From Fuscovulum ytuae (GTDB lineage: Bacteria; Pseudomonadota; Alphaproteobacteria; Rhodobacterales; Rhodobacteraceae): 64,000 bases of DNA. The DNA lies in assembly GCF_029953595.1 (NCBI RefSeq), contig NZ_CP124535.1:3827001-3891000 (forward strand), written 5' to 3'. A program made the translations under genes and the position numbers. Below the pieces are notes generated by a model. That model saw only the letters and a list, made by a program, of their open reading frames with translations, did not search any database and was not told the DNA's origin. Within the stretch, counting starts at the first letter, position 1. Every line of letters starts with the position of its first letter. Below, piece by piece: positions 11,765 through 21,075 of this stretch.

Positions 11765-11947
11765 CCGGACATCCAATCGAAAGTATGGATCGGGGTCGCC
11801 TTTTGCGGGTGACCTCGTCCCTTTGATCCCTGCTGTTTCGCGGTGGACCCCAAGTTCAGGCTAACACTCTGCCCCGACGCGTCGTCCTGATGCGTGAAGG
11901 TCGCCTTGCGGATGAGCCGGGCGGTGCAGACAGGACGGAGGGATGCC

Positions 11948-12220
11948 ATGGCAATCAAGAGCAAGGACTTGTCGGGTGATCTGCGTGCGGGCGCGGCGGG
12001 GACGCTGCGCGATGATCTGGTGGCGGCGCTGACCAAGGGCGATCTGCGGGTGAAGACGGCAGGACTGACGGCCGTGGACTCCGCCATCGTGCAGGTGCTG
12101 GTTTCGGCGCGGGCGACAGCGGCGCAGATGGACCGGAAATTGCAGATCGACCTGCCGAAGGACGGCGTGCTGGCGGCCCTGCTGGACCGACTGGCAATCG
12201 ACCCCGCGCAACTGGCCTAA
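11948..12220 (+). CDS. STAS-domain protein at the head of the che operon
   Basis: 90 residues. The segment DLRVKTAGLTAVDSAIVQVLVSARATA corresponds to the STAS/anti-sigma-antagonist core, with the VDSA serine at the position phosphorylated in SpoIIAA-type proteins. ATG 11948 follows GGAGGG. No kinase or phosphatase of the SpoIIAB/IIE type is adjacent. Because it leads an operon of chemotaxis genes, a role tuning CheA or receptor assembly is plausible but unproven. Similar small STAS proteins precede cheY in other alphaproteobacterial che clusters as far as I recall. Confidence 0.7.
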   Translation: MAIKSKDLSGDLRAGAAGTLRDDLVAALTKGDLRVKTAGLTAVDSAIVQVLVSARATAAQMDRKLQIDLPKDGVLAALLDRLAIDPAQLA

Positions 12221-12267: not shown

Positions 12268-12633
12268 ATGCCCAAGACCGTATTGACCGTCGATGATTCA
12301 CCGTCGATCCGCCGGATGATCGCGATGACCCTGCAAGAGGCGGGGTATGATGTCGTGGAGGCGGTGGACGGGAAGGATGGCCTTGACAAGGCCTTGGCCC
12401 GCCCGATGGACGCGATCATCACCGATCAGAACATGCCCAACCTTGATGGTCTGGGCTTCATTCGTGCGCTGCGTCAGCACCCGCAGGGCAAGGGCGTTCC
12501 GATCGTGGTGCTGTCTACCGATAGCGAGGAAGGGCTGAAGCAGCAGGCGCGCGAGGCGGGCGCGCTGGGCTGGATGGTGAAGCCTTTCACGCAGGACAAG
12601 CTTTTGGCCGTGATCAAGAAGGTTCTGGGCTGA
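12268..12633 (+). CDS. cheY: Chemotaxis response regulator CheY
   Basis: A stand-alone 121-residue receiver domain. The acidic pair is in VDDSPS (D9-D10), the phospho-acceptor Asp is about residue 53 in IITDQNMPNLDG, the conserved Thr is in VLSTDS, and Lys is in MVKPF. CheY-P carries the signal from CheA to the flagellar motor or acts as a phosphate sink. Its TGA overlaps the cheA ATG (TGATG), giving tight coupling. Confidence 0.93.
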   Translation: MPKTVLTVDDSPSIRRMIAMTLQEAGYDVVEAVDGKDGLDKALARPMDAIITDQNMPNLDGLGFIRALRQHPQGKGVPIVVLSTDSEEGLKQQAREAGALGWMVKPFTQDKLLAVIKKVLG

Positions 12634-14672
12634 TGATGGATGACATGACGGCGATCTTCCGCGAGGAAGTGCGAGACTTACTGGAAAGCCTTGAGCGGGG
12701 GCTTTTGGACCTGAAATCGCGGCCCGAGGATATGGGTCTGGTCAATCAGGTCTTTCGCGACCTGCATACGGTGAAGGGCAGCGGGGCGATGTTCGGGTTC
12801 ACCGAACTGGCCGCCTTCATCCATGAATTCGAGACGGTGTTCGACAAGGTTCGGTCCGGCCATCTGGCCGTGGGGCCCGATCTTCTGCGCCTTGCCCTTG
12901 CGGCGAAGGATGAAATCCCCGGTTTGGTCGAAGGCGAGGCCGATCCCGAAGGTCGGCGCGGGGCGATCCTTTCCGGGCTGCACGGGTTGCTTGGCGGGGG
13001 GCCTGTCACTGCGGCTGGCGAACCCGAAGCGGCCGGGGACACGGTCGAAGCAGGGGAGGTGGCTGTGGCGGGGGCCATGCGCCTGACCTTCCGGCTGACC
13101 GGGGCGGCGCTGGCGCTGGGCGCGCGGCCTGACCTGGTGCTGGACGAATTGCGCGGCTTGGGCGCGACGGGGATCGTGGCCGATCTGGCCGATGTGCCGC
13201 CGCTGGACCGTCTGGATGTAGAGGCCTGCGCGATTGGCTGGTCGATGCAGCTGCCGGCGTCGGTGACAGCTGCGCAGGTGGAAGAGGTGTTCCTTTTCGT
13301 CGATGCGGAATGGGCGCTTGAGGCAGATGCCGTGGCGGCTGCGGCCGTGGTCGAGGCCGAGGTGGCTGTGCCGGCCCCGATAGAGGCTGTGGCGGCTGCT
13401 GCGGCACCTGCCGCCCCAGTGGCCCGACCTGTCGCCAAGCCGGAGCCGAAAGCCGAAGCGAAGGCCGAGGCCAAATCGGATGCCGGTGCGACGATCCGCG
13501 TTCCAGCCGAGCGTCTGGATGCGTTGATGGATGCAGTGGGCGAATTGGTCATCGCCGAGGCACGGCTGACCCAGTTGGCGCGCGACCTGCGCGACCCCGC
13601 ACTTATGGCCACGGCGGAACAGATCACCCGGCTGGCGGGCGGTCTGCGCGATGCAACGATGACGATGCGCATGGTGCCGATGCGGTCGCTGGTCGGGCGG
13701 TTCCGTCGGCTTGTCCTTGATCTGTCGGACAAGCTGGGCAAGCCGGTTGAATTCCGCGTGACAGGTGAGGAAACCGAGCTTGACAAGACGGTCATCGAAA
13801 AGCTGGCCGATCCGCTGGTCCATGTGCTGCGCAACGCGCTGGATCATGGGATGGAAATGCCGGATGCCCGCGTCGCTGCCGGGAAAGCACGCGAGGGGCT
13901 GGTGGAACTGGTCGCAGAACATGCGGGGGCCGAGGTTCTGATCAAGGTGCGCGACGATGGCAAGGGGATGGACCCGGCCAAACTGCGCGAAAAGGCGATT
14001 GCTAAGGGCTTGATCACTGCGGAGACGCAACTGACCGAGGCGCAGATCTTCGCGCTGATCTTCGAGCCCGGCTTTTCCACCGCCGAGGCCGTGACCGATC
14101 TGTCGGGGCGCGGCGTGGGGATGGATGTGGTGCGCCGGACGATCGACGCGCTGCGTGGGACGATCCAGATCGAATCCGCGCTTGGTCGCGGCACAACCGT
14201 GACGCTGCGCCTGCCGCTGACGCTGGCCATCATCGAAGGGTTGCAGATCGAAGTGGCGGGCGAACAGTACATTCTGCCCATGACGAATGTGCAGGAGATC
14301 GTGGAACTGCCGCCCGAGAAGGTGGAACCCAGCCGGACCGAAGATTTCCTGGATGTGCGGGGTGGATTCGTTCCCTTCCTGCGGCTGCGCAGCCTGTTTG
14401 ACTGCGCGGGCGAGCCGGGATCGGGGCAGAATGTGGTGATCGTGCGCGCGGGTGAGGCGCGGGTGGGCATCGTCGTGGATCGGATCATCGGCACGAACCA
14501 GACGGTCATCAAGCAGATGTCGAAGCTGCATGCCGGGGTGCGGGCGCTGTCTGGGGCAACGCTGTTGGGCAATGGGTCCATCGCGCTGATCCTTGATGTG
14601 GGGCACCTCGTCGGCATGTCGCGGCAGCAGGGTGAGGCGGCGCAGGTCGCGCGGCAGGAGGTTCTGGCATGA
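12633..14672 (+). CDS. cheA: Chemotaxis histidine kinase CheA
   Basis: 679 residues. P1 Hpt domain with the phosphorylatable His45 in FRDLHTVKGSG. An Ala/Pro/Lys-rich linker spans about residues 240-285. The P3 dimerisation helices begin at TIRVPAERLDALMDAVGELV. The P4 ATPase domain has the N-box LRNALDHGME, DDGKGMD and GRGVGMDVVR. The C-terminal P5 CheW-like domain starts around LPLTLAIIEGLQIEVAG. P2 is not obvious; the P1-P3 region has a divergent domain at about 150-235 that may serve as P2. Starts at 12633 or 12636 are both possible. Confidence 0.95.
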   Translation: MMDDMTAIFREEVRDLLESLERGLLDLKSRPEDMGLVNQVFRDLHTVKGSGAMFGFTELAAFIHEFETVFDKVRSGHLAVGPDLLRLALAAKDEIPGLVEGEADPEGRRGAILSGLHGLLGGGPVTAAGEPEAAGDTVEAGEVAVAGAMRLTFRLTGAALALGARPDLVLDELRGLGATGIVADLADVPPLDRLDVEACAIGWSMQLPASVTAAQVEEVFLFVDAEWALEADAVAAAAVVEAEVAVPAPIEAVAAAAAPAAPVARPVAKPEPKAEAKAEAKSDAGATIRVPAERLDALMDAVGELVIAEARLTQLARDLRDPALMATAEQITRLAGGLRDATMTMRMVPMRSLVGRFRRLVLDLSDKLGKPVEFRVTGEETELDKTVIEKLADPLVHVLRNALDHGMEMPDARVAAGKAREGLVELVAEHAGAEVLIKVRDDGKGMDPAKLREKAIAKGLITAETQLTEAQIFALIFEPGFSTAEAVTDLSGRGVGMDVVRRTIDALRGTIQIESALGRGTTVTLRLPLTLAIIEGLQIEVAGEQYILPMTNVQEIVELPPEKVEPSRTEDFLDVRGGFVPFLRLRSLFDCAGEPGSGQNVVIVRAGEARVGIVVDRIIGTNQTVIKQMSKLHAGVRALSGATLLGNGSIALILDVGHLVGMSRQQGEAAQVARQEVLA

Positions 14673-15148
14673 CGATCCATCATCTGAAGGAAGATCGGTC
14701 ACTGACGGTGGTCACACTGTCGCTGGGTAAGCAGGTGCTTGCCATCCCGGCGGTGCGACTGCGCGAGATCCTTGATCCCATGCCCGTGACGCGGGTGCCG
14801 GGGGCCGGGCCACTGGTTCCGGCGGTTCTGAACGTGCGGGGGACGGTGGTGCCGCTTGCGAACCTGAAGCAGGTGCTGCGTATCCCCGAAGTGGAAGCGG
14901 ATGACCGCCGCCGCATCCTTGTTCTGGATGTGACCATTGCGGGCGAGGCAGCGGTTGTCGCGATCGAGGCCGATGCCGTGCATGAGGTGGCCACTATCGA
15001 AACCGCGATCATCGAGGCGGTTCCCGCGACGGCCAGCGCATGGCCGCCGGAATATTTGACCGGTCTGTACCGTGGCGGCGAGGGTTTCGTTCTGATGCCC
15101 GACCTTGACCACATTTTATCTGTGTTGGCCCAGAGGCCAATTGTTTAA
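14669..15148 (+). CDS. cheW: Chemotaxis coupling protein CheW (first copy)
   Basis: A 159-residue CheW fold. [23 protein letters not shown] opens the first subdomain, and [20 protein letters not shown] is the conserved receptor/kinase-binding segment. It starts on an ATGA overlap with cheA. A second, different CheW follows two genes later, so the operon supplies two couplers, perhaps for separate membrane and cytoplasmic arrays. Confidence 0.93.
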
Positions 15149-15167
15149 CGCCTGGAAAGGGCCTGTG

Positions 15168-16835
15168 ATGAGACTGACGATCAAAACCAAACTGGCTGCG
15201 ACCTTTGTCCTTGTCTTCGCGCTATGGGGCGTGTCGACGGGGCTTTCGGTGACCTATCTGAGCGCGGCCAATCATCGCTATGCCGAGACGGTGCAGCGCG
15301 ACATCGTCCGGTTGCTGGAGATCGAGGATCTGGTGACCGAAAAGCTGTTGGTGCGCCAGAATGTCGGATTGGTTCTGATCGGGCTGCCGAATGCGCCCGC
15401 CGATCACATCCCGAACCTTGTGGAAAAGGTGAAGGCCGGGGCGGCCCGTGTGGATGAGCTGATTGCCGATCTGCGGTCGCAGACGACGGACCCCGCCATC
15501 CTTGACAAGATCACGCAATTCGACGCCATCCATCAGGAAGCGTTCAAGCTGCAGGTGCGGATTATCGATGCCGAGCTTGCCGGGAATGGCGATCAGGCGA
15601 ACACGCTGTATCACACGGTGGGCGGTGAGGTCGCGGACCAGATCACGACGGCGTTGGGCGAATTGCGCACCATGGTGCAGGTCATCGCGCATGAGAACGA
15701 GGCGCTGACAAATGCGGAATACTCCTCGGCCAAGTTGATGATGCTCTCGCTGTTCGCGGTATCTGCGGCGGTGACGGCGGCGGCGGCCTTCTGGATCATG
15801 GCGGGTCTGTCGCGCGGCTTGAAGCAATCCGTCGCCTTGGCCACGTCGATCGCCGAGGGTGATCTGGCGGTGGCGACAGAGGCACGCACGAATGACGAAA
15901 TCGCCGATCTACTGAAGGCGCAGGCGGTCATGGTGGTGAAGCTGCGCGAAATCGTGGCCAGTGTGAACCAATCGGCGCGCAATGTGGCGTCGGGGTCCAC
16001 GCAGATGGCATCGACCTCTGAGGAAATGAGCAAAGGCGCGACGGAGCAGGCATCGTCCACCGAAGAGGCCTCGGCCGCGGTTGAGCAGATGGCGGCGAAC
16101 ATCAAGCAGAGCGCCGAGAATGCGCAGATAACCGAGAAGATCGCGGCGAAATCGGCCGAAGATGCACGTGCCAGCGGCAAGGCTGTGGCCGATGCAGTCG
16201 AGGCGATGCAGACAATCGCGGACCGGATCATGATCGTGCAGGAAATCGCGCGGCAGACCGATCTTCTGGCGCTCAATGCGGCGGTCGAGGCGGCGCGGGC
16301 GGGCGAACATGGGCGCGGCTTTGCCGTGGTGGCCGCAGAGGTGCGCAAATTGGCAGAACGCAGCCAGACGGCAGCGGCAGAAATCTCCTCCTTGTCAGCA
16401 TCGACGGTGCGGACGGCGGCCAGCGCGGGCGAAATGCTGCAAGGGCTGGTGCCGGATATCGAAAAGACCTCGGCCCTTGTGACGGAGATCAGCGTGGCGT
16501 CGCGCGAATTGGCGACGGGTTCGGCGCAGATCAGCCTGTCGATCCAGCAGTTGGACAAGGTCACGCAAGAAAACACCGCGGCCGCAGAAGAGCTGTCGGC
16601 CAGCGCCACTGAACTGGCGAGCCAGGCTGAAATGTTGTCCGAGGCAATGGCGTTTTTCCGCACGGGTCCAGAGGCGCAGTCGGTGAAGGTGGTGGTGAAA
16701 GCCGCGCCTGCCGAGATGCGGCCCGTGACGCGGGCGAAGGCTGCACCGAAGGTCGAAGGCGGGTTCGACTTCGATCTGGGTGGGGAGTCGGATGACGAAT
16801 TGGACGCGCGATTCAAGCGCCGCGATGCGGCCTGA
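15168..16835 (+). CDS. Methyl-accepting chemotaxis protein with helical periplasmic domain
   Basis: 555 residues from ATG 15168, which has GGAAAGG upstream. TM1 is at about 9-32, the periplasmic domain at 33-186 is helical and four-helix-bundle-like, and TM2 is at about 187-212. A HAMP segment follows at about 213-265. The signalling hairpin tip is [22 protein letters not shown] (written in two parts: [12 protein letters not shown] and [19 protein letters not shown]), residues about 359-390. Methylation-type Q/E pairs flank it. The C-terminus is acidic then basic ([13 protein letters not shown]) with no NWETF-type tether. Being inside the che operon suggests co-assembly with its CheA and CheW. 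Confidence 0.93.
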
Positions 16836-16844
16836 GGAGGGACG

Positions 16845-17342
16845 ATGACCGAGAATGCAACTGTCGTGACATTTGTGGCGGATGAAGCGTTGTATGCGGT
16901 GCCAGTCGAAAGGGTGCAGGAAATCCTTGACCTGCGCCCGATTGCCCCGCTGCCCAGTACGCCGTCGCATTTGCTGGGGGTGATCGACCTGCGCGGTGCG
17001 AATGTGCCGGTGGTGGACCTCCGCCGCCTGCTGGGGCGCCCCGATACCGAGGATACGGCGCAGAGCCGTATCCTTGTGGTGCAGGTGGGCCATGAAGGCG
17101 CGCAAATCGTGCTGGGGATCAAGACCGACCGGGTGATCGAAGTGACGGCGCTGGATGAGCCAGAGCTCAAGCCCTTGGCCGAGGCAGAGCTTCTGCGTTG
17201 GACGGGCAGTGCCGTGGCGGGCATCGCGCGCTGCCGGGGCGCGGTGGTGAGTGTGCTGGACCTCGACCGGTTGTTCGCGCGGCCCGACATCATGGCGGCT
17301 GCCGAGGCAGGACCGTTCGATCTGGCCGATGCCGCCGCCTGA
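16845..17342 (+). CDS. cheW: Chemotaxis coupling protein CheW (second copy)
   Basis: 165 residues. ATVVTFVADEALYAVPVERVQEIL and the strongly conserved HLLGVIDLRGANVPVVDLRRLLG fit CheW better than the first copy does. It lies 9 bases after the receptor gene with GGAGG before the start. The C-terminal strand pair RCRGAVVSVLDLDRLF is complete. Confidence 0.93.
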   Translation: MTENATVVTFVADEALYAVPVERVQEILDLRPIAPLPSTPSHLLGVIDLRGANVPVVDLRRLLGRPDTEDTAQSRILVVQVGHEGAQIVLGIKTDRVIEVTALDEPELKPLAEAELLRWTGSAVAGIARCRGAVVSVLDLDRLFARPDIMAAAEAGPFDLADAAA

Positions 17343-17409
17343 CAGGGTGCGGGTGCAGGGTTGGCCGCCCCGCGACAGGGGCGGTCGAGAGGCAGAAGAG
17401 AATGGCGCG

Positions 17410-18249
17410 ATGCTGAGTGAAAATGTCCAACAGGCCAGCGACCGGTTCCGCGACCTGATCCGGTCGATCACCGGGATCAGTCTGCCGCCGCATAAGGTGC
17501 AGATGATCGATCAGAGGTTGCGGCGGCGGGTGATGGCCTTTGGCCTGCCGGATACGGAAACCTATTTGGCGCAGCTCATGGCCGGGGCCTTGCCGAAGGA
17601 TGAGCTGGGACAGGTGATTGACCTAATCACCACAAACACTACGAGCTTTTTCCGCGAGGCGGAGCATTTCACTTTTCTGATCGATGTGGTGCTGGCCGAG
17701 AAGATGGCACAGGTTCGCCACGGGATGCCGGCACGGTTCAAGCTGTGGTCGGCGGCGGCTTCGGAAGGGGCCGAGGCCTATACGGCAGCGATGGTTCTGG
17801 AAGAGGCGCGTCGCGCGGGGAAGGGGTGCGATTGGGCGATCCTTGGCACCGATCTGAGCCAGCGGATGGTCGATCGCGCGCAGGCCGCGATCTACGCGAA
17901 TGACCAGCTTTCGACGGTGCCCGCGGCTTTGCAGCGGCGGTATTTCCTGACCTCGGACGACCCCAGCGTCGCGGGAAAGTCGCGCGTGGTGCCGGAGTTG
18001 CGCCGGAACGTGCGCTTCCGCCATCTGAACCTGATGGATCACCGCTATCCCGTCGACCGGGATGTGGACGTGGTGATGTTGCGCAACGTGCTGATCTATT
18101 TCGATCAGACGGATAAAGAGCAGGTGGTGGATCGCCTTGCCGGGCATCTGCTTTCCGGGGGGTATCTGATTGTCGGACATGCCGAAAGCATGGTGGTGCG
18201 GCATCCCGCGCTGCGGCAGGTCCGGCCCACGATTTTCAGGAAGGTGTGA
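17410..18249 (+). CDS. cheR: Chemotaxis methyltransferase CheR
   Basis: 279 residues from ATG 17410. The N-terminal helical domain runs to about residue 80. Then comes the SAM-binding methyltransferase fold with TTNTTSFFRE, the glycine-rich substitute LWSAAASEGAEAYTAA, and DVVMLRNVLIYFD. It methylates receptor glutamates from S-adenosylmethionine. The family usually has WSAACSTGEE in the motif I loop; here the Cys is Ala and Gly-Glu is degenerate, but the rest is intact. The frame is open upstream into cheW, though only as shadow sequence. Confidence 0.92.
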   Translation: MLSENVQQASDRFRDLIRSITGISLPPHKVQMIDQRLRRRVMAFGLPDTETYLAQLMAGALPKDELGQVIDLITTNTTSFFREAEHFTFLIDVVLAEKMAQVRHGMPARFKLWSAAASEGAEAYTAAMVLEEARRAGKGCDWAILGTDLSQRMVDRAQAAIYANDQLSTVPAALQRRYFLTSDDPSVAGKSRVVPELRRNVRFRHLNLMDHRYPVDRDVDVVMLRNVLIYFDQTDKEQVVDRLAGHLLSGGYLIVGHAESMVVRHPALRQVRPTIFRKV

Positions 18250-18250
18250 G

Positions 18251-19366
18251 ATGGCGCTGAAACCCAACGATGCGGCAAAGGTTCTGATCGTGGACGACAG
18301 CGCCTCGGCACGGGCGATGCTGCGGGCAATTGTGGAAAGCGACCCGGGTCTTTCGGTGATGGCCGTCTGTATCGACGCCTTCGAGGCGGCAAAGGTGATG
18401 CGGGACAGCCTGCCGGATGTGATCCTGCTGGACCTTGAACTGCCGGGCATGGATGGGATGACCTTCCTGAAGAAGATCATGGCGCAAAAGCCCTTGCCGG
18501 TGGTGATCTGCTCCGGGCTGACGGCGCGCGGATCTGAGCAGAGCATCGCGGCGCTTGAGGCGGGCGCGGTGGAGGTGATCCTGAAGCCTTCGGCGGGCGA
18601 TGACCGTGCGCGGGCCGAGGCGCAGGTGCGCATCTGCGATGCCCTGCGCGCGGCGGCTCAAAGCCGGAAGGGGGGGCGTGCGGGCATCCTGCCCGGCGCG
18701 CTGCGGGCACCGGGGGCGAAGCTGACGGCGGATGAGATTCTGCCGCCGCCGAATCTGACGCGGCCTGTTCCCCTGACCGAGCCTATCGTTTGCATCGGCG
18801 CATCGACCGGCGGGACAGAGGCGCTGCGCCAGGTGCTGGTGGCGCTGCCGCCAGATGCGCCTGCAATCTGCATCGTGCAACATATGCCTGCCGGGTTCAC
18901 CGCGGCCTTCGCGCGGCGGCTGGACGGGCTGTGCAAGGTGAAGGTGACCGAAGCTGTCGATGGCGCCACGGTGGGGCAGGGCGAGGTGCTGATCGCGCCG
19001 GGCGACCAGCATATGATCCTGCGGCGGCTTACGTCCGGCTATCGGGTGTCGGTGGTGCAGGGGCCCTATGTCAGCCGCCATCGCCCGTCGGTCGATGTGC
19101 TGTTCCGGTCGGCGGCTGGATCGGCAGGGGCCAATGCGCTGGGCATTATCCTGACGGGGATGGGCGATGACGGGGCGCGCTGTTTGGGTGAGATGAAGGC
19201 GGCGGGTGCCGCCACGATCGCGCAGGATGAGGCGAGTTCCGTCGTCTATGGCATGCCGCGCGAAGCGGTGCGGATGGGCAGCGTGGGGCAGACCCTGCCC
19301 CTCGACAAGATGGCGACGACGATCATGGCTTTCGCCCGTCGCCACAGGACAGGAGTTCAGGCATGA
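18251..19366 (+). CDS. cheB: Chemotaxis methylesterase/response regulator CheB
   Basis: 371 residues. The receiver domain has IVDDSAS, the phospho-Asp in VILLDLELPGMDG and Lys in LKPSAGD. The C-terminal CheB domain has a catalytic Ser in CIGASTGGTEALR, His in CIVQHMPAGF and Asp in LTGMGDDGARC. It removes receptor methyl groups when phosphorylated by CheA. ATG 18251 is one base after the cheR stop. The stop overlaps the next gene's ATG at 19363. Confidence 0.95.
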   Translation: MALKPNDAAKVLIVDDSASARAMLRAIVESDPGLSVMAVCIDAFEAAKVMRDSLPDVILLDLELPGMDGMTFLKKIMAQKPLPVVICSGLTARGSEQSIAALEAGAVEVILKPSAGDDRARAEAQVRICDALRAAAQSRKGGRAGILPGALRAPGAKLTADEILPPPNLTRPVPLTEPIVCIGASTGGTEALRQVLVALPPDAPAICIVQHMPAGFTAAFARRLDGLCKVKVTEAVDGATVGQGEVLIAPGDQHMILRRLTSGYRVSVVQGPYVSRHRPSVDVLFRSAAGSAGANALGIILTGMGDDGARCLGEMKAAGAATIAQDEASSVVYGMPREAVRMGSVGQTLPLDKMATTIMAFARRHRTGVQA

Positions 19367-21075
19367 CCATCGCAACCCCCATCTTCGGTTCCAAGGCGCG
19401 ACAGGCGGTGGCCGATCCGCTGGAAGGTGTGCTGCGGATCACGGAAGAAACCTTTGTGCAGGCGGGCGACGCCCTTTCTGGCGCGGTAGAGATCCTGAAA
19501 GGGACCGAAACGCTGTTTGCACGGCTGGATGTCACGCTGGGCGATGAGACGAGCGCACAGTTGGCGTCCCTAATCGAAGAAACCTTCGCCAATGTGGAGG
19601 TGATCCGTGCCGATTTCGACGGGTTCAGCCGCGATGCCGTGGCGCTGCGTGCCGCAGTGCGCAACGTGCGGGTGGAGGTGAACGAATTGGACCGCGTGGT
19701 GCGGACCATTTCCAATGTGTCGATCAATGCGCGTATTCAGGGCAATGGGCTGGTGCCGCCGCGCCCGCAGGTGAATTCCTTTATCGAACGCCTTGCCTCG
19801 ATGGCATCGGAAGCCGAAAGCATCCTGACCGAGGTGAAGGATGCCATGGTCGGGATCGGGCATGACACCGGGGCGATGGAAGCCAGTTTGCTGGAGTTGC
19901 GGCAGGAATTGATGCTGCATGTCTTGCCACGGCTCAGCCGTTTCGCGGCCATCGCGCAGTCCGTGCAGGATGGCCGGGCCGAGATGACGCGGATGAGCGG
20001 CGATCTGGCGGCGCGGATGCGGGTGGTGTTTTCCGAAGTGTCGCGGATGATCATGGCGTTGCAGACCGGGGACAGCACGCGCCAGCGACTGGAACGGGTG
20101 CGCGAGGTGCTGGCCGAGGCGTCGATGGTGCCCGGATCGGGGCTGGAGGCGGTGCTGGTCGACCTTGCCAAGGCACTGTCGGCGGCGGCGCGCGAGGATG
20201 CCGAGGCTGAGATTGGCGTGTCGGTTTCTGCACTCTCTGCGGTGCGGACAAGCGCCGATCAGGCAATGGCTGCGGCGCGCAGCTTTTATTTCGCGAAGGC
20301 AGGTCGCGGCAGCGGTGATGGCGGCACGGCAGGGGATGCCGAGGCGCTGTCGGCCAGCCTGGCGCGGGTCAAGCGGAACCTTTCCGTGATGCGCGGACGG
20401 GCCGAACAGTTGCGCGGGCGGCTGGATGTGATCCTGAAGCATGAGGCGACAATCCGACAGATTGCCCAACAGGTGCGCCTGTCGGGGCTGAATGCGGTGC
20501 TGATCTGCGCCAAGCTGGGCGAAGAGGGGCGGTCCTTGCGCGAATTGGCGCAATGGCTGCGCACGTTGACGGATGAAAGCGATGCCATCGTGCAGCGCCT
20601 GCAAGGCCATCTGGCCGAGACGCGCAACCGCACCCGCGAGGCGGGGCAAGCGGGGGTAGACCGTCTGGAGGGGGCGCTGTCGGGCTTTATCGGGGATGCC
20701 GAAGCGCTGAATGAGGCCATGGGCCAGATCGACCGCGTGGTCAGCGATACGGCGCGGGGCTTTGATCAGGCGGGCAAGGCGCTGCCGATGAAGCTGGGTC
20801 AGGCGGCGGAGCGGCTTGAGACGTTCCATCGGGCGTTGGACGAATTGGCGCGTCTGGAGGCAGGGTTCCTTTTGCGGCGGATGATGCTGGCCGACCCGGT
20901 GCTGCCGATGGTCGAAGGCACGCATGAGGCCGAGGTTTTGGCCCGCCAGCGCGCGCGCTATACGATGCAGGCCGAGCGGGCGATCCATGACGGGGTGATC
21001 GGTGCGGGGCTTGCCCCTGTTGTGGCCCCGCAAGAGGCTGCCGCGGAAGAGACGCTGGACGACATCCTGTTCTGA
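19363..21075 (+). CDS. Soluble receptor-like coiled-coil protein with CheZ-like motifs, last gene of the che operon
   Basis: 570 residues, no signal or membrane helix, nearly all helical. Residues 364-390 (IRQIAQQVRLSGLNAVLICA, then KLGEEGR) align with a receptor hairpin tip, but key glutamates are lost. A weaker copy is ISNVSINARIQ at 116-126. R. sphaeroides cheOp2 ends with the cytoplasmic receptor gene tlpC in the same place, as I recall. Residues 231-244, MALQTGDSTRQRLE, keep the spacing of CheZ Asp143 and Gln147 (here D237 and Q241, with T239). The C-terminus ETLDDILF resembles the CheY-binding tail of CheZ (DDLLDSLGF). No cheZ, cheC or cheX is in the operon. A role as CheY-P phosphatase or cytoplasmic signal integrator is an inference. 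Confidence 0.7.
   Translation: MTIATPIFGSKARQAVADPLEGVLRITEETFVQAGDALSGAVEILKGTETLFARLDVTLGDETSAQLASLIEETFANVEVIRADFDGFSRDAVALRAAVRNVRVEVNELDRVVRTISNVSINARIQGNGLVPPRPQVNSFIERLASMASEAESILTEVKDAMVGIGHDTGAMEASLLELRQELMLHVLPRLSRFAAIAQSVQDGRAEMTRMSGDLAARMRVVFSEVSRMIMALQTGDSTRQRLERVREVLAEASMVPGSGLEAVLVDLAKALSAAAREDAEAEIGVSVSALSAVRTSADQAMAAARSFYFAKAGRGSGDGGTAGDAEALSASLARVKRNLSVMRGRAEQLRGRLDVILKHEATIRQIAQQVRLSGLNAVLICAKLGEEGRSLRELAQWLRTLTDESDAIVQRLQGHLAETRNRTREAGQAGVDRLEGALSGFIGDAEALNEAMGQIDRVVSDTARGFDQAGKALPMKLGQAAERLETFHRALDELARLEAGFLLRRMMLADPVLPMVEGTHEAEVLARQRARYTMQAERAIHDGVIGAGLAPVVAPQEAAAEETLDDILF

Follow-up and report, generated by a model that had tools for sequence, protein, structure and literature searches.

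A receptor-derived candidate CheY-P phosphatase encoded at the end of a chemotaxis operon in Fuscovulum ytuae

The window analyzed here is a stretch of 64,000 nucleotides from Fuscovulum ytuae (assembly GCF_029953595.1, contig NZ_CP124535.1, positions 3,827,001 to 3,891,000). The gene in question (19363..21075, + strand) is the last of a che operon and encodes a 570-amino-acid protein, predicted to be soluble, helical and receptor derived. This protein is probably a chemoreceptor descendant that works in the cytoplasm as a CheY-P phosphatase and combines CheZ-like catalysis with CheZ-like docking. Its motifs are conserved, it has receptor ancestry and it is linked to the operon, in a genome with no match to CheZ, CheC or CheX. 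The first-pass annotation, which had proposed a receptor-derived candidate phosphatase, is supported by the conservation of the motifs, by a second family that joins them to a receptor hairpin, and by a CheZ profile that picked out carriers of the motif with DxxxQ in register; the function itself we infer. The protein belongs to a widespread and little-noticed family that may switch off the signal in chemotaxis systems lacking a CheZ of their own.

The window protein's own family was designated X, and a second family, which has a receptor hairpin and shares the motif and the type of tail, was designated Y (16 sequences, from other alphaproteobacterial families). X relatives were gathered from 295 genomes of the same bacterial family; a single-protein query matched 22 of these at E <= 0.001, including some partial or plain receptors. 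From the 22-row alignment we left out L004, L023/L030 (one broken-frame copy in genome G217), partial or plain receptor-like sequences (L024-L027, L029, L032), two sequences without a match (L005, L033), and L006, which is the window itself. Seven members found later with the resulting profile brought the total to 29, and 27, window included, were left after the near copies L001 and L002 had been removed. In eight of the 29 X regions the X open reading frame (ORF) had diverged too far to be matched by the single-sequence query and was placed by the profile scan, whose total of 159/295 is not a count of X because four candidates were scored per genome and plain receptors crowded the list. Two more profiles represent the N-terminal half of X (A4; 81/385 genomes of the class, plain receptors among them) and the motif (A7). 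The ORF comparison set comprised 10,061 ORFs in 69 fetched regions (29 of the X family and 40 found via A4 or A7), of which 71 were A7 positive and are called motif carriers below.

The CheZ-like motif MALQTGDSTRQR (residues 231-242; 20053..20088, +) contains D237 and Q241 and has the family consensus LQxGDxxRQRxEHV. It had been feared to be a chance match, but both residues were kept in 27/27 non-redundant X sequences, a count that is partly built in because the relatives were gathered with profiles containing them. Invariance was restricted to 7 of the 570 columns (Q234, D237, Q241, R242, N377, E538 and R539), which by a simple count gives P = 1.3e-4 for two pre-chosen columns both being invariant. 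The invariant columns of the 22-row alignment included L233, Q234, G236, D237, Q241, R242, N377, E538, R539 and F570, and the only other DxxxQ of the protein, D407/Q411, was unconserved there; the seven members found later all had D..Q. In the motif-bearing N-terminal half, 21 of 28 relatives were just 13-24% identical to the window protein. Chance motifs in a coiled coil were rejected on the strength of this conservation. The Thr thought to be shared with CheZ did not hold up, being unconserved (11/20). D and Q were present in 71/71 motif carriers, partly as a product of the search.

The tail ETLDDILF (residues 563-570; 21049..21072, +), which by its letters resembles a CheY-docking peptide, follows a linker whose length varies (in X, 17-55 residues separate E538 from the C-terminus). 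Its likeness to CheZ had also been put down as possibly accidental; the hydrophobic-Phe C-terminus (F570) proved to be conserved in 24/27 X sequences. A lack of conservation of D237, Q241 and the tail among orthologues had been named beforehand as refuting the proposal, and the orthologues instead kept the motif in 27/27 and the tail in 24/27. Among Y tails, 15/16 end in (I/V)(E/D)LF. A hydrophobic-Phe ending, followed by at most one residue, was found in 65/71 A7-positive ORFs versus 19/1453 other ORFs of >= 250 amino acids from the same regions, a comparison whose P values are not literal, given the relatedness of the sequences and the use of six-frame ORFs as the other group. The profile used to search for the 29 X-family regions included the tail, but A4 and A7, which yielded the other 40 regions, do not; in those 40 the ending occurred in 40/42 motif carriers versus 10/673 other ORFs of >= 250 amino acids.

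Alternatively, the tail could be a CheR/CheB-tethering pentapeptide and the protein a degenerate receptor serving adaptation. An aromatic-xx-aromatic pentapeptide does end many receptors, among them 18 of the 57 plain receptors (methyl-accepting chemotaxis proteins, MCPs) in the fetched regions, and 2/27 X tails, of the EWF type, fit this pattern. We nevertheless consider a tether very improbable, because 25/27 X and 16/16 Y tails misfit the pattern and because it is often the MCP of the same operon that fits it, as with DWSEF next to a Y protein ending in IELF; a tether was rejected on these counts as a general explanation of the tail. None of the 57 plain receptors had the hydrophobic-Phe ending. 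One X gene (L052/L118, genome G153) encodes DxxxQR without the tail and constitutes a natural test of the role of the tail. Between the core and the linker lies a third conserved element, YTMQAERAIHD (residues 533-543; 20959..20991, +), common to part of the wider family. Its pattern, Y(T/S)MxxERxxH or similar, matches 48/71 motif carriers and is also present in L153, L208, L213 and L215; in many Y proteins this place is taken by letters resembling (L/Y)TLGEMRERF.

The claim that the protein is receptor derived gained support from Y, in which an unmistakable receptor hairpin occurs together with this motif and a tail of similar type. Comparison of A4 with the Y profile gave a probability of 98% (P = 6e-14) over 192 aligned columns, with a single 7-residue gap near the start followed by 176 gapless columns (window residues 82-257). 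In this alignment N122 falls opposite the Asn at the tip of the Y receptor hairpin, and D237/Q241 opposite D318/Q322 of Y. All 16 Y sequences matched the Pfam receptor model MCPsignal (PF00015) at E <= 1 (best 9.5e-31). These two results indicate that X shares common ancestry with receptor hairpins. Q315, D318, Q322 and F409 are invariant in Y, whose motif is of the type LQFQD...Q and whose tails are like DDIELF. The spacing between the tip Asn and the motif Asp was 115 residues in 16/16 Y sequences, as it is between N122 and D237 in the window protein; in X it was 115 in 14/27 and 111-117 in the others, and in 14 further tip-bearing proteins it was 115-117, exactly 115 in 8.

Read along its sequence, X consists of a degenerate receptor hairpin with its tip at N122, DxxxQ, a second receptor-like hairpin (N377), YTMxxERxxH, the linker and the tail. 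The N-terminal hairpin (residues ~61-235, tip N122-A123-R124; 19543..20067, +) is homologous to that of Y. The second (residues ~323-509, tip around N377; 20329..20889, +), whose assignment draws in part on a low-confidence model, has lost the receptor-tip glutamates and presumably arose by insertion or duplication. The first-pass annotation had recognized a receptor hairpin at residues 364-390 (IRQIAQQVRLSGLNAVLICAKLGEEGR); this segment is indeed receptor-like with its glutamates lost, but the hairpin that bears the motif is the N-terminal one. Searches of Pfam and NCBIfam returned sub-threshold receptor matches only, in the second half of the protein; that to MCPsignal (residues 343-473) scored 20.6 bits against a cut-off of 34.6. 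The window protein has neither a match to MCPsignal above the Pfam cut-off nor an intact tip. Among the 22 X relatives, 11 matched this model at E <= 1 (best 3.4e-5), and a sequence search of solved structures in the Protein Data Bank (PDB) gave weak matches, mostly to receptors (best E 0.0014). Solubility is predicted because the highest 19-residue Kyte-Doolittle mean is 1.11, so that no membrane helix is expected.

Of 60 genomes sampled from the phylum, 20 had a match to CheZ (Pfam PF04344) at E <= 0.001, and in 18 it was above the cut-off. The motif of alphaproteobacterial CheZ proteins reads like ACNFQD(I/L)TGQRI.KVV, and many have a C-terminus of the SQDDIDALFD kind; the corresponding letters of the window protein are ALQTGDSTRQRLERV and, at the C-terminus, ETLDDILF. 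DxxxQ spacing (27/27) and an acidic hydrophobic tail after a linker are thus both present in the sequence. A CheZ profile of our own was built from 17 sequences (24 CheZ loci viewed, 18 extracted, L076 omitted because the chosen start cut the sequence) and run on the 10,061 ORFs. The top 15 matches (E 2.8e-6 to 0.035) were all motif carriers, one from X (L115) and the rest from Y or the wider family, and the first non-carrier ranked 16th (E 0.049). If matches were independent, the chance of such a result would be ~1e-33. In 15/15 the DxxxQ lay inside the matched domain and in register, as in MQYDDISSQRISHVV under cnFQDlTGQrIkkVv. In direct profile comparisons DxxxQ was in register in every X-CheZ and Y-CheZ case, but the similarity was weak, Y and CheZ giving a probability of 38% (P = 3.3e-4). 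The Pfam CheZ model itself gave sub-cut-off matches to three superfamily members (G782, 2.4e-5; G297, 4.3e-4; G725, 1e-3) and none above its cut-off in the window family. Membership of the window protein in the CheZ family was rejected, since it has no Pfam CheZ match.

The operon, entirely on the + strand, runs STAS - cheY - cheA - cheW - mcp - cheW - cheR - cheB - X, and the ATG of the X gene overlaps the cheB stop by 4 bases (ATGA). A STAS-domain protein (11894..12220) heads it, followed by the presumed substrate CheY (12268..12633), in which D9, D10, D53, N55, T84 and K105 are present, by CheA (12633..14672), and by CheW, the receptor, CheW, CheR and CheB (14669..19366). That the operon lacks CheZ, CheC and CheX was confirmed and extends to the whole genome, with no match to PF04344, PF04509 or PF13690 at E <= 0.001. 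Likewise, PF04344 had no match in 295 genomes of the same bacterial family, and this model does find alphaproteobacterial CheZ. The linkage recurs among relatives, as 25 of the 29 X regions contain cheY, cheA, cheW, cheR and cheB. Of the other four, L103 and L105 are che clusters in which cheB was undetected, L098 lies on a short contig that has cheB and cheR, and L097 is decayed.

The signal might be ended otherwise, by phosphate-sink CheYs, the STAS protein or a bifunctional CheA, leaving the window protein to sense a cytoplasmic signal or to modulate the array. The STAS protein at the start of the operon would fit this, as would two further CheA loci in the genome with CheY-like ORFs nearby (G000:C1:3368000-3387900 and 2355000-2374900; L231 and L232), and phosphate sinks together with a bifunctional CheA have a precedent in Rhodobacter sphaeroides (cf. 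the start of the abstract of PMC2924250). We regard this alternative as improbable, because it leaves the joint conservation of DxxxQ and a CheZ-like tail unexplained and because X has lost the receptor-tip glutamates. One of the two additional clusters has an MCP ending in GWEDF.

Structural work on CheZ has established that its tail docks on CheY, that its Gln positions a water molecule and that its Asp contacts the CheY lysine. By analogy, we infer the dimer, docking, catalysis and substrate of the window protein as follows. Two chains would pair via the N-terminal receptor-type hairpin, each presenting the D237/Q241 helix at the C-terminal end of the hairpin, 115 residues beyond its tip. 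As in CheZ, the C-terminal peptide, acidic and hydrophobic and tethered by a flexible linker, would bind CheY-P at its motor-binding (alpha4-beta5-alpha5) face and so bring it to D237 and Q241. Q241 would then position the attacking water and D237 hold the active-site lysine of CheY, which would terminate the signal of the operon's cheA-cheY pathway in a bacterial family that yielded no CheZ match. A rival reading is a scaffold that sequesters or localizes CheY-P, binding it through the tail and the DxxxQ helix without catalysis and acting as a buffer or polar anchor; the tail resembles CheZ C-termini, and receptor-like hairpins could seat the protein in an array. We find it unlikely, since the retention of both D and Q in all X sequences and all motif carriers, the latter partly a search result, goes beyond what a binding surface needs.

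Besides the built-in share of the D/Q invariance, several observations weigh against a phosphatase. The similarity of X to CheZ profiles is weak (probability 13%, P 0.0022; and probability 4%, P 0.011). Outside the family, 27 of 39 carrier genomes have a CheZ match above the Pfam cut-off and 29 of 39 have one at E <= 0.001, the two sub-cut-off matches being the superfamily protein itself (G725) and a 917-amino-acid ORF (G745). No motif carrier was detected beside the two additional CheA loci of the window genome, and the STAS protein at the operon head belongs on this side too. No match came from G104, a genome labelled as congeneric with the window. Of 20 regions (four X-type, 16 Y), 18 adjoin che genes and two have no che gene at all; in the 20 regions of the phylum-wide search, cheA lay within the fetched stretch in 13 and was not nearby in seven. 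AlphaFold models of the full protein and of residues 61-262 (four sequences each) were both too poor (mean pLDDT 50) to assess the geometry of hairpin and active site. Finally, phosphate sinks are a known alternative in alphaproteobacteria according to the accessible text of PMC8429497 and PMC12654446.

The window genome measures 4.19 Mb, and its nearest matches, a Rhodobacteraceae metagenome-assembled genome (94%), Tabrizicola sp. TH137 (91%) and Rhodobacter kunshanensis (68%), make it Tabrizicola-like; plasmid records gave no match to the window protein. The motif profile A7 matched 23/198 genomes within the family and 79/200 genomes of the phylum, the latter possibly including false matches (ORFs of ~1200 amino acids unexamined). 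L120-L122 are X-type proteins from further families of the Alphaproteobacteria. In the decaying che locus L097 (G217), a CheA fragment accompanies an X gene in two separate frames with the motif still legible. Seven loci (L212, L213 (first ORF), L214, L215, L224, L225 and L226) encode proteins of ~580-720 residues (open frame) with a QF/QYDDI..QR motif, a tail DDIELF or FELF and no recognised receptor tip, most of them not near cheA; L226 is the best CheZ-profile match. In the Y operons L156-L159, L161, L164, L165 and L168, the Y gene is followed by a ~400-residue ORF with a CheY-like part.

Two relatives lead to a known class of receptors. In a 6.2-Mb genome (L207), a 445-residue ORF with a receptor tip, ALQFQDMSSQ and the tail EVELF adjoins cheY-cheA-cheW-receptor(DWEEF)-cheR-cheB, and in Vibrio (L227) a cluster of this type has, after its cheB, a 400-residue ORF containing ALQFTDIIVQ and EVELF; this second ORF, absent from the A7 list, came to light through its motif and a BLAST search with Y. 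This layout matches that described for PA0180/CttP and VCA1088 in the accessible text of PMC7184735, and gene order and tail suggest that L207 is PA0180-like. By gene order, relatives of the window protein thus occupy the position of McpA/CttP-like receptors, whose role is unexplained. As far as its accessible text goes, PMC7184735 defines this class by clustering with PA0180 at E 1e-30, reports it to be dispensable for the F7 array, and describes its C-terminus as highly conserved, of unclear role and without the CheR pentapeptide; that of P. aeruginosa has valine at the second position and did not interact with four CheR homologues. The same text places cheZ only in F6 systems in stages 1 and 2, dates the loss of the mcpA-like gene to stage 3, all species of which kept the F6 cheY/cheZ pair, and cites work that puts McpA-like receptors in the F6 array. 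VCA1088 and VC1394 appear as little-known outlier receptors in the accessible part of PMC7534058.

It is conceivable, with somewhat less than even credence on our part, that chemoreceptor-CheZ hybrids occur across the phylum, McpA/CttP-like receptors and others beside che clusters included, and act as dedicated CheY-P phosphatases where a CheZ of their own is lacking; intact tips may let the signal set the phosphatase directly. Set against the available text of PMC7184735, this would explain the conserved C-terminus of McpA-like receptors without a CheR motif, their dispensability for the F7 array, and their loss at the stage that retains and recruits the F6 cheY/cheZ pair. If true, a single protein would both sense and terminate a signal in hybrids with intact receptor tips, and a route from receptor coiled coil to phosphatase would become apparent. 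D237, Q241 and the tail are point-mutation targets for an immediate test of the phosphatase function.

The accessible text of PMC7750401 gives the CheZ motif as AXXFQ-DXXXQ. Like CheZ, the window protein has DxxxQ on a predicted helix, A at -5, a linker and an acidic C-terminal peptide, and it shares with alphaproteobacterial CheZ the QR(I/L)..V after the motif and a comparable tail (..SQDDIDALFD in CheZ, ..ETLDDILF in the window). Unlike CheZ, it has two receptor-like hairpins, a length of 570 rather than ~180-260 residues, Q at -3 and G at -1 where CheZ has FQ, and no LLNGP linker motif. Its likeness to CheC, CheX and FliY is one of proposed function only; their fold and motif are unrelated to it. 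The proteins placed by gene order with the McpA-like receptors (P. aeruginosa CttP/PA0180, V. cholerae VCA1088), L207 and L227, have a receptor hairpin, QF(Q/T)DxxxQ 115 residues beyond the tip and the tail EVELF beside a che cluster; they have an intact tip and a hydrophobic N-terminal segment, whereas in the window protein, which is soluble, the tips are degenerate and the motif is followed by a second hairpin. No paper recognised as reporting a receptor with a CheZ-type motif was found in the open-licence literature; subscription journals were largely uncovered, and an earlier description is possible. CheT of Sinorhizobium meliloti is a small protein encoded by the last gene of an alphaproteobacterial che operon. 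As described in the accessible text of PMC12654446, it contains DXXXQ and is reported to speed the dephosphorylation of one of two CheYs; unlike for the window protein, this description mentions no receptor part. Known here by description alone, CheT is the nearest described case in that literature, and the window gene resembles it in ending an alphaproteobacterial che operon and encoding DxxxQ.

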